A DNA stretch of 64,000 nt from Pseudoselenomonas ruminantium (lineage in GTDB: Bacteria; Bacillota; Negativicutes; Selenomonadales; Selenomonadaceae), in contig CACZHK010000036.1 of NCBI GenBank assembly GCA_902780915.1, forward strand, positions 1-64,000, given 5' to 3'. Position numbers and translations under genes: made by a program. Below, piece by piece: positions 26,181 through 42,058 of the stretch (position 1 is its first letter; each line of letters begins with the position of its first letter). The notes beneath the pieces are model-generated. The model saw only the letters and a program-made list of their open reading frames with translations. It was not told the DNA's origin and ran no database searches.

Positions 26181-26209
26181 TTGACCTGCCGGGAACCATA
26201 TGCTATTAT
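26181..26209 (+). promoter_or_regulatory. Promoter of second tRNA cluster
   Basis: TTGACC and TATTAT with 17-bp spacing, 30 bp before the CAU tRNA. Confidence 0.75.
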
Positions 26210-26239: not shown

Positions 26240-26316
26240 GGGCCTATAGCTCAGTTGGTTAGAGCAACCGGCTCATAACCGGTCGGTCCTTGGTTCGAGT
26301 CCAAGTGGGCCCACCA
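26240..26316 (+). tRNA. tRNA with CAU anticodon (Met or Ile2)
   Basis: A 77-base cloverleaf with acceptor GGGCCTA/TGGGCCC, anticodon loop CTCATAA and encoded CCA. It is not an initiator type by its paired first base. CAU tRNAs can be elongator Met or Ile read after lysidine modification; sequence alone does not decide safely. Confidence 0.93.
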
Positions 26317-26341
26317 AAAACTTCATATTTTACTGCAATAT

Positions 26342-26419
26342 GACTCAGTAGCTCAGCTGGATTAGAGTATTTGACTACGAATCAAAGGGTCGGGGGTTCG
26401 AGTCCCTCCTGGGTCACCA
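26342..26419 (+). tRNA. tRNA-Arg(ACG), copy 1
   Basis: A 78-base cloverleaf, acceptor GACTCAG/CTGGGTC, anticodon loop CTACGAA, encoded CCA. An identical copy lies on the minus strand at 41,981-42,058. Confidence 0.95.
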
Positions 26420-26423
26420 TTGT

Positions 26424-26499
26424 GGGTAGGTGCCCGAGTGGTTAAAGGGAAATCTGCCGCCTCACGGCTACGATGGTTCGAATCCATCCCTGCCCACCA
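26424..26499 (+). pseudogene. tRNA-Tyr lacking its anticodon
   Basis: Acceptor GGGTAGG/CCTGCCC, the D arm CCCGAGTGGTTAAAGGG, the long variable arm CCGCCTCACGGC, the T arm and CCA are those of a bacterial tRNA-Tyr. The D arm is followed directly by AAATCTGC, the 3' half of the anticodon stem. About ten bases (expected GCAGACTGTA) holding the 5' anticodon stem and the GTA anticodon are missing; length is 76 instead of about 86. It cannot decode Tyr as written. A sequence error must be excluded. Confidence 0.75.
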
Positions 26500-26511
26500 C
26501 CTTGAAATGAT

Positions 26512-26536
26512 AGCGTCGCGTCAGCGGCGCTTTTTT
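26512..26536 (+). terminator. Terminator of tRNA cluster
   Basis: AGCGTCGC and GCGGCGCT pair around GTCA, followed by TTTTTT. Confidence 0.85.
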
Positions 26537-26569
26537 CATGTTTTGCCTGATATTATTTGTGCACGATTC

Positions 26570-26598
26570 TTGACTTTGGGAGTTCTTTAGGCTACAAT
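26570..26598 (+). promoter_or_regulatory. Promoter of glmS
   Basis: TTGACT and TACAAT with 17-bp spacing. The transcript would begin near 26,605, leaving a 450-base leader before glmS. Confidence 0.75.
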
Positions 26599-26604
26599 AG
26601 GCGG

Positions 26605-26674
26605 GTAATCGGGCGAAGCCCGAGGGAAATCCGGTGTGGATTTGCCTGCTGTACCGGTGTAATGAAAAGCAGGA
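26605..26674 (+). other. Structured leader before the glmS ribozyme
   Basis: TCGGGC/GCCCGA and AAATCC/GGATTT hairpins, then CCTGCT paired with AGCAGG, lie between the transcription start and the ribozyme. GGGAAATCCGGTGTGGAT faintly recalls part of a cobalamin riboswitch core, but the rest of that fold is not seen. Confidence 0.35.
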
Positions 26675-26680
26675 ATGCTT

Positions 26681-26853
26681 AGCGCAGGCTCTCAGCTTGT
26701 TCGAGAAAAGCTGAGAGGACGAGGAGAAGGTTGTCGAGAACTCAGCGGATGCCTTCCGGCCGGTCCGGTCGAGAGAAACTTCTTAAAGCCCCTCTGCGAG
26801 GAGGGGGACAAAGGGAGTGGAGGACACAGCAGGTGTACTGTGATAGGGATGCT
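26681..26853 (+). ncRNA. glmS: glmS ribozyme
   Basis: This is the glucosamine-6-phosphate-activated self-cleaving RNA in the 5' leader of glmS. Visible parts are the cleavage site A|GCGC at 26,681-26,682, the P1 hairpin CTCTCAGCTT/AAGCTGAGAG, the core GACGAGGAGAAGGTTGTCGA, the P2.1/P2.2 strand CAGCGGATGCCTTCCGGC, and the 3' P3-P4 region with GGGACAAAGGGAGTGGAGGA. When GlcN6P is high the RNA cuts itself and glmS mRNA is degraded. The 3' boundary is approximate. Confidence 0.9.
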
Positions 26854-27060: not shown

Positions 27061-28899
27061 ATGTGCGGTATTGTTGGATTTATTGGGAAGAACAAGCGTG
27101 ATAAGGCTGCCAATGTGCTTTTGGATGGCCTGGCTAAGCTGGAGTATCGCGGTTATGACTCTGCCGGCATTGCAGTGCTGGGGGATGGGAAGATCCGCGT
27201 GGAAAAGAGCGTGGGGCGCCTGGCTGCTCTCCGTGACAAGCTGAAGGGCAAGATGCCTGAGGGGCTTTTGGGCATCGGCCATACCCGTTGGGCTACCCAT
27301 GGCCGTCCGTCTGACAAGAACTCCCATCCTCATACGGACTGCTCTGGGGATTTCGTCATTGTCCACAATGGCATCATCGAGAACTACCTGACCCTTAAGG
27401 AAGAGCTGATTGAGGCTGGCCATGAGTTCAAGAGCGAGACTGACACCGAGGTGGTAGCACACCTGCTGGAGGAAGTCTACAACGGTGATTTCGTGGCTTC
27501 CGTGCGCACGGTGCTTTCCCGGGTGGAGGGCAGCTATGCTCTGGTGTTCATGAGCGCCAAGCATCCTGATATGCTGATTTGCGCCAAGCAGGACAACCCG
27601 CTGATCATCGGCCTGGGTGAAGGCGAGAACTTCATCGCCTCCGATGTGCCCGCCATCATCGCCCACACCCGCAAGAACTACGTGCTGGCTGACGGTGAGC
27701 TGGCTGTGGTCACCGCTGACAGCGTGGAGGTCACCAACCGCAAGGGCGAGAAGGTGAACAAGAAGATTTTCGAGGTCACCTGGAATGCCGAGGCTGCCGA
27801 GAAGGGCGGCTATGAGCACTTCATGCTCAAGGAAATCAACGAGCAGCCCAAGGCTGTCCGCGACACCATGAGCCAGCGCATCACCGCTGATGGCCAGGCC
27901 ATTCAGATGGAAGAGCTGAAGTGGGACAAGGAGTACCTGGAGAAGTTCAGCCGCGTCTACATCGTGGCTTGCGGCACTGCATATCATGCAGGCCTGGTGG
28001 GTAAGTATTACATCGAGAAGCTGGCCCGTATCCCCGTCATGACGGATGTGGCTTCCGAGTTCCGCTATCGTGACCCCATCATTGATGACAAGACCCTGTT
28101 CATCACCGTTTCCCAGTCCGGTGAGACCCTGGACACCCTGGCAGCCATGAAGGAAGCCAAGCGCCTGGGGGCTACTACCTTGGCTATCACCAACGTGGTG
28201 GGTTCCTCCATTGCCCGCGAGGCAGACAAGGTGCTCTACACCTGGGCTGGCCCGGAGATTGCCGTGGCTTCCACCAAGGCCTACACCACCCAGATCGTGC
28301 TGTTCTTCATGCTGGCCCTCTACATGGCTGAGATGAAGGGCACTGTGACCAAGGAAAGGGCTGCCGAGCTGGTGGGCCTCCTGCAGAAGGTTCCTGCTCA
28401 GATTTCCGAGACCCTTTCCGATGTTGACCCCATCAAGACCTTTGCCAAGGCTTATGGCTTCAATGAAGATGTATTCTACATTGGCCGCGGCCTTGACTAC
28501 AGCGTGTCCCTGGAGGGCGCCCTGAAGCTGAAGGAGATTTCTTACATCCACGCCGAGGCTTATGCCGCAGGCGAGCTGAAGCACGGCACCCTGGCTCTCA
28601 TCACCGAGGGCATTCCCGTCATCGCTCTGGCTACCCAGAAGAGCGTCTACGAAAAGACTCTCTCCAACATCAAGGAAGTCAAGGCCCGTGATGCCGTAGT
28701 CATCGGCATCGCCTCCGAGGGGGACGAGGAACTGGAGAAGTATGTGGATCACGTCATGAAGGTCCCCGCTACCGACGAGCTCCTTTCCCCCATCCTCTCC
28801 GTAGTGCCCCTGCAGCTGCTGGCCTACTACGCCGCCATCACCCGCGGCACCGATGTGGACAAGCCCAGGAACCTGGCCAAGTCCGTGACGGTGGAGTAA
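27061..28899 (+). CDS. glmS: Glutamine-fructose-6-phosphate aminotransferase
   Basis: A protein of 612 residues. It starts MCGIVGFIG, so Cys2 is the glutaminase nucleophile after Met removal; RWATHGRPS and HNGIIENY are glutamine-site motifs. Two SIS domains follow (ACGTAYHAG, SQSGETLDTL; then GRGLDYSVSLEGALKLKE) and the C-terminal KSVTVE is the conserved end. It makes glucosamine-6-phosphate for peptidoglycan and lipopolysaccharide. It is controlled by the ribozyme in its own leader. ATAGGAGG lies ten bases before the ATG. Confidence 0.97.
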   Translation: MCGIVGFIGKNKRDKAANVLLDGLAKLEYRGYDSAGIAVLGDGKIRVEKSVGRLAALRDKLKGKMPEGLLGIGHTRWATHGRPSDKNSHPHTDCSGDFVIVHNGIIENYLTLKEELIEAGHEFKSETDTEVVAHLLEEVYNGDFVASVRTVLSRVEGSYALVFMSAKHPDMLICAKQDNPLIIGLGEGENFIASDVPAIIAHTRKNYVLADGELAVVTADSVEVTNRKGEKVNKKIFEVTWNAEAAEKGGYEHFMLKEINEQPKAVRDTMSQRITADGQAIQMEELKWDKEYLEKFSRVYIVACGTAYHAGLVGKYYIEKLARIPVMTDVASEFRYRDPIIDDKTLFITVSQSGETLDTLAAMKEAKRLGATTLAITNVVGSSIAREADKVLYTWAGPEIAVASTKAYTTQIVLFFMLALYMAEMKGTVTKERAAELVGLLQKVPAQISETLSDVDPIKTFAKAYGFNEDVFYIGRGLDYSVSLEGALKLKEISYIHAEAYAAGELKHGTLALITEGIPVIALATQKSVYEKTLSNIKEVKARDAVVIGIASEGDEELEKYVDHVMKVPATDELLSPILSVVPLQLLAYYAAITRGTDVDKPRNLAKSVTVE

Positions 28900-41980: not shown

Positions 41981-42058
41981 TGGTGACCCAGGAGGGACTC
42001 GAACCCCCGACCCTTTGATTCGTAGTCAAATACTCTAATCCAGCTGAGCTACTGAGTC
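41981..42058 (-). tRNA. tRNA-Arg(ACG), copy 2
   Basis: Identical in sequence to the tRNA at 26,342-26,419, on the opposite strand. Its 3' end faces the kinase-helicase island, the usual side for island insertion at tRNA genes. Confidence 0.95.

Follow-up and report, generated by a model that had tools for sequence, protein, structure and literature searches.

A tRNA-Tyr gene lacking its anticodon in Pseudoselenomonas ruminantium is probably a young pseudogene

Results

The tRNA cluster and its defective tRNA-Tyr gene

The DNA analysed here (the window, 64,000 nucleotides) is part of contig C36 in the genome of Pseudoselenomonas ruminantium (G000), a draft of 104 contigs and 3.16 Mb. It carries a tRNA cluster in the order three tRNA-Gly(GCC), tRNA-Met(CAT), tRNA-Arg(ACG) and a defective tRNA-Tyr. 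ARAGORN called eight other tRNA genes in the window and left the defective one, at 26424-26499, uncalled. The features of the locus and the related gene elsewhere on the contig are:

26181-26209, forward strand: sigma-70-like promoter, TTGACC-17-TATTAT, ahead of the Met-Arg-Tyr genes (consensus scan only)
26240-26316, forward strand: tRNA-Met(CAT), intact, first gene past the promoter-like site (ARAGORN)
26342-26419, forward strand: tRNA-Arg(ACG), intact, directly upstream of the defective tRNA-Tyr (ARAGORN; 78 of 78 positions identical in four congeners)
26424-26499, forward strand: defective tRNA-Tyr copy 1 with a 10-base deletion, probable pseudogene (RF00005, 38.5 bits; uncalled by ARAGORN; CCA at 26497-26499)
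26449-26450, forward strand: deletion junction, where GGG (26447-26449) abuts AAATC (from 26450)
26512-26531, forward strand: terminator-like hairpin followed by a T run, downstream of the defective tRNA-Tyr (hairpin kept in congeners)
26541-26566, no strand: synteny break private to the window genome, at the boundary of tRNA cluster and glmS unit (congener comparison)
26670-26829, forward strand: glmS ribozyme, a neighbour outside the finding (RF00234, 92 bits)
G000:C36:90721-90806: intact tRNA-Tyr paralogue on the same contig, about 64 kb from 26424-26499

The sequence of 26424-26499 reads GGGTAGGTGCCCGAGTGGTTAAAGGG up to the junction 26449/26450 and AAATCTGCCGCCTCACGGCTACGATGGTTCGAATCCATCCCTGCCCACCA beyond it. 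Its match to the Rfam tRNA model RF00005 scored 38.5 bits, with an E-value of 1.4e-4 when the whole window was searched and 1.7e-6 when the genome was, and is thus not due to chance; the remaining 62 matches in the genome scored 50-75 bits. The alignment runs from end to end of the gene with the anticodon arm omitted. Acceptor strands, D-arm sequence, T arm, long variable arm, discriminator A and an encoded CCA are all present, and the initial annotation, which had described the acceptor, long variable and T arms and the CCA as kept, agrees with both the sequence and the RF00005 match. These elements and the Met-Arg-Tyr cluster are shared with class II bacterial tRNA-Tyr(GUA) (RF00005), from which the window copy differs in having lost the anticodon together with the 5' strand of its stem. 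Functional tRNA-Tyr genes combine the acceptor stem, T arm, long variable arm and CCA, which the window copy has, with GUA in a 7-base loop on a stem of five base pairs, which it lacks. Since this defining anticodon arm is absent, 26424-26499 falls outside the functional tRNA-Tyr genes.

The ten-base deletion and the intact paralogue

Searches with the 78-base stretch and then with the intact gene located two tRNA-Tyr places in the genome, namely 26424-26499 and the intact gene at 90721-90806. A count of other tRNA-Tyr genes had been proposed in the initial annotation as a check, and it thus yielded a second, intact copy. The two copies are identical at all 76 common positions and differ by one 10-base block: the paralogue reads ...TTAAAGGGAGCAGACTGTAAATCTGCCGCC... 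across the lesion site and the window copy ...TTAAAGGGAAATCTGCCGCC..., the stretch across the junction including GGTTAAAGGGAAATCTGCC. The absent block is either AGCAGACTGT or GCAGACTGTA, a one-base ambiguity caused by one A common to both ends. It comprises the 5' anticodon-stem strand GCAGA and the loop portion CTGTA with the anticodon GTA. Measured against the paralogue, the initial description of a tRNA-Tyr without its anticodon and half of the stem was exact to the base, and the ten bases reported as gone between the D arm and the 3' anticodon-stem strand correspond to this single gap.

The main rival to a true deletion is an assembly or library artefact, in which the cell would carry an intact gene and the ten bases would have been lost during short-read assembly or gap closing over a repeated, hairpin-forming tRNA gene. 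Such a loss is conceivable in a 104-contig draft where the pair of tRNA-Tyr genes amounts to a repeat of 86 bases; the related assemblies G005 and G002 break at these tRNA genes, and the lesion is some 100 bases away from a synteny break private to this assembly. However, the junction sequence occurs only once in the genome, which argues against a mixture of the two copies, and an assembler mix-up as sole cause was rejected because, in addition, the flanks of the copies are distinct. An ordinary k-mer assembler creates no junctions that the reads do not contain. A generally poor assembly was likewise rejected, as the contig contains no N and none of the 113 long open frames matched from relatives is split. 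Furthermore, no tRNA match elsewhere in the genome, 62 in all, falls below 50 bits. We therefore regard an artefact as possible but rather unlikely.

The gene in relatives

The orthologue in the Met-Arg-Tyr cluster is present in four congeners, intact in three of them (G001, G003 and G004), and it is also intact in many further family members. In G001 the anticodon stem reads ACGGA/TCCGT instead of GCAGA/TCTGC, and the compensatory change of both strands indicates that the orthologue was a working gene. This stem allele is found again in the second tRNA-Tyr of the metagenome assembly G002, a gene cut by a contig end. The orthologue of G002 (L037 1601-1682; G002:C69:3938-4019) has a complete anticodon arm and a D loop without the four bases GTGG, a gap found in no other of the 189 family genomes. 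This independent lesion suggests that the tRNA-Tyr copy of the Met-Arg-Tyr cluster is dispensable in the genus. In G005, a congener with 99% completeness (L051), the contig ends within the adjacent tRNA-Arg (G005:C2:1-74) and no tRNA-Tyr match was found, an absence which is probably an assembly gap.

According to the similarity search, 171 of the 189 family genomes contain tRNA-Tyr-like genes, commonly one or two each, and genomes with a single match exist, such as the single-contig genome G012. The intact 10-base spacing was found in 54 genomes and the shortened gap in one of 189, the window's own. Exact-pattern scans for gaps 1 to 10 bases short returned nothing from 84,980 species genomes or from viral contigs, sets from which the window's own genome may have been left out.

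The distribution bears on the last option offered in the initial annotation, a stable tRNA-like RNA with another use. Such an RNA might act as a decoy for tRNA-binding proteins or as a regulatory RNA, and in its favour the promoter-like site, the terminator and, within the gene, the acceptor, variable arm, T arm and CCA have all been kept. Some pseudo-tRNAs do have roles outside translation, as with tRNAOther of Bacillus cereus, a tRNA-like gene likewise unfit for translation (PMC3399842). However, tRNAOther has kept its anticodon (Trp), is found in several Bacilli and shows a deletion phenotype (PMC3399842), whereas the window copy has no anticodon and did not recur in the other genomes searched.

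Conservation is the hallmark of a retained function, and an altered form seen in one genome only, among the 189 family genomes, the 84,980 species genomes and the viral contigs, does not display it. Folding prediction for the shortened RNA gave a structure unlike a cloverleaf and little better than that of shuffled sequences (z of -1.65, against -2.43 for the intact gene), and recency alone suffices to explain why the remaining sequence is identical to the intact copy. This option thus found no support, and we judge a retained RNA of any such use to be highly improbable. The same holds for its most specific form, in which the shortened tRNA-Tyr would be transcribed, matured at its ends and stable, and would bind tyrosyl-tRNA synthetase or processing enzymes without decoding, tuning tyrosine charging: we give it hardly any credence.

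The synteny break downstream of the cluster

As far as position 26540, the contig corresponds to the surroundings of tRNA-Tyr in its relatives, and from 26567 onwards to those of glmS, which in G001 lie 130 kb from the former. The break, about 100 bases from the deletion, brings the glmS unit directly downstream of the tRNA cluster. The DNA that follows tRNA-Tyr in four congeners is found here on contig C31; it extends to some 35 bases from the old junction, and other DNA comes next. Since the break falls between the tRNA terminator and the promoter-like site of glmS, its clean position fits a tolerated natural rearrangement.

The deletion could be a scar of the rearrangement that joined the glmS unit about 40-65 bases downstream, with a break in or near tRNA-Tyr followed by lossy repair. 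This explanation is a special case of a pseudogene and adds nothing to the probability of the latter. In its favour, the sequences left of 26540 and right of 26567 match separate places in congeners, the displaced DNA resides on another contig, and deletion and synteny break are both private to the window genome. On the other hand, the whole sequence separating deletion from break, with the terminator and the 3' part of the tRNA, is intact, so that two separate lesions would be required, and the deletion ends have only one base in common. A common origin of both lesions therefore appears doubtful and improbable.

The attachment site of an integrated element was also considered and rejected, as the 14-base words of 26341-26600 recurred only in further tRNA-Arg and tRNA-Tyr genes on the contig, and these matches included no att-like duplicate of the 3' end of tRNA-Tyr. 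In the vicinity, glmS itself is located at 27061-28899, preceded by the glmS ribozyme. As a separate observation, stretches of about 40-110 bases (L153 13411-13641, G003) recur across the window genome in the manner of a dispersed intergenic repeat family, with repeat-like copies in contigs C13, C4, C53, C37, C49, C25, C47, C76 and C42.

Age of the deletion

The 144-base spacer between tRNA-Gly and tRNA-Met differs from that of the closest congener, G003, at 41 sites (28.5%). In the same comparison the defective gene showed no substitution in 76 positions. When half of the spacer divergence is assigned to the window's branch and all 76 bases are treated as free, about 11 substitutions in 76 bases are expected from neutral drift along the entire terminal branch. 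The contrast with the 0 observed indicates that the deletion is recent. The identity of the two copies may owe something to gene conversion, but conversion would also tend to restore the ten bases.

Discussion

We consider it likely that 26424-26499 is a young pseudogene, produced when a redundant tRNA-Tyr gene lost its function through a very recent deletion. The initial annotation had listed a recent pseudogene among its options, and this one is favoured by the intact second gene, the lack of substitutions and a lesion that is private among 189 family genomes. The copy descends from a gene that is intact at the same place in G001, G003, G004, G014 and others, its function is covered by the gene at C36:90721-90806, and the missing anticodon would abolish its canonical function. 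With pseudogenes of redundant tRNA copies it has in common the disabling lesion, the intact paralogue and a broken form that is not conserved. It differs from them in being otherwise undecayed and situated between a promoter-like site and a terminator; the absence of further decay is explained by its young age.

In the proposed course of events, a single 10-base deletion would have struck one of two redundant tRNA-Tyr(GUA) genes and removed the 5' stem strand together with the anticodon. Transcription of the cluster from the upstream promoter would persist. The promoter-like stretch of 26181-26209 is also visible in the congener alignment, and since this site and the terminator remain, a transcript of tRNA-Met, tRNA-Arg and the shortened tRNA-Tyr is probably still made; the term "expressed", used for the cluster in the initial annotation, is best taken as a prediction from sequence. 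The retained acceptor and T arm may still allow the precursor to be processed at its ends. The shortened product could not decode without an anticodon and would probably be removed by RNA quality control, which makes decay the likely fate of this RNA.

All tRNA-Tyr would then be supplied by the intact gene at 90721-90806. With one of the two tRNA-Tyr places defective, decoding of tyrosine depends on this one gene, and the redundancy explains why the loss was tolerated. Escherichia coli strains deprived of redundant tRNA genes in the laboratory survive; they pay for the loss in rich media and sometimes gain from it under nutrient limitation (PMC9981150). Such losses are thus plausible in nature.

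If our interpretation is correct, 26424-26499 represents a small, datable case of a redundant bacterial tRNA gene dying, and a second species of the genus shows a different lesion in the orthologous tRNA-Tyr. Wider consequences of the shortened tRNA-Tyr are expected only if the RNA is stable and active. In this genus, the number of tRNA-Tyr genes cannot be relied on when it is taken from a draft or metagenome assembly.

The tRNA-Arg(ACG) gene next to the defective copy is itself repeated in the window. Identical genes are located at 26342-26419 and 41981-42058, in opposite orientation and 15.6 kb apart, and may constitute a substrate for inversion.
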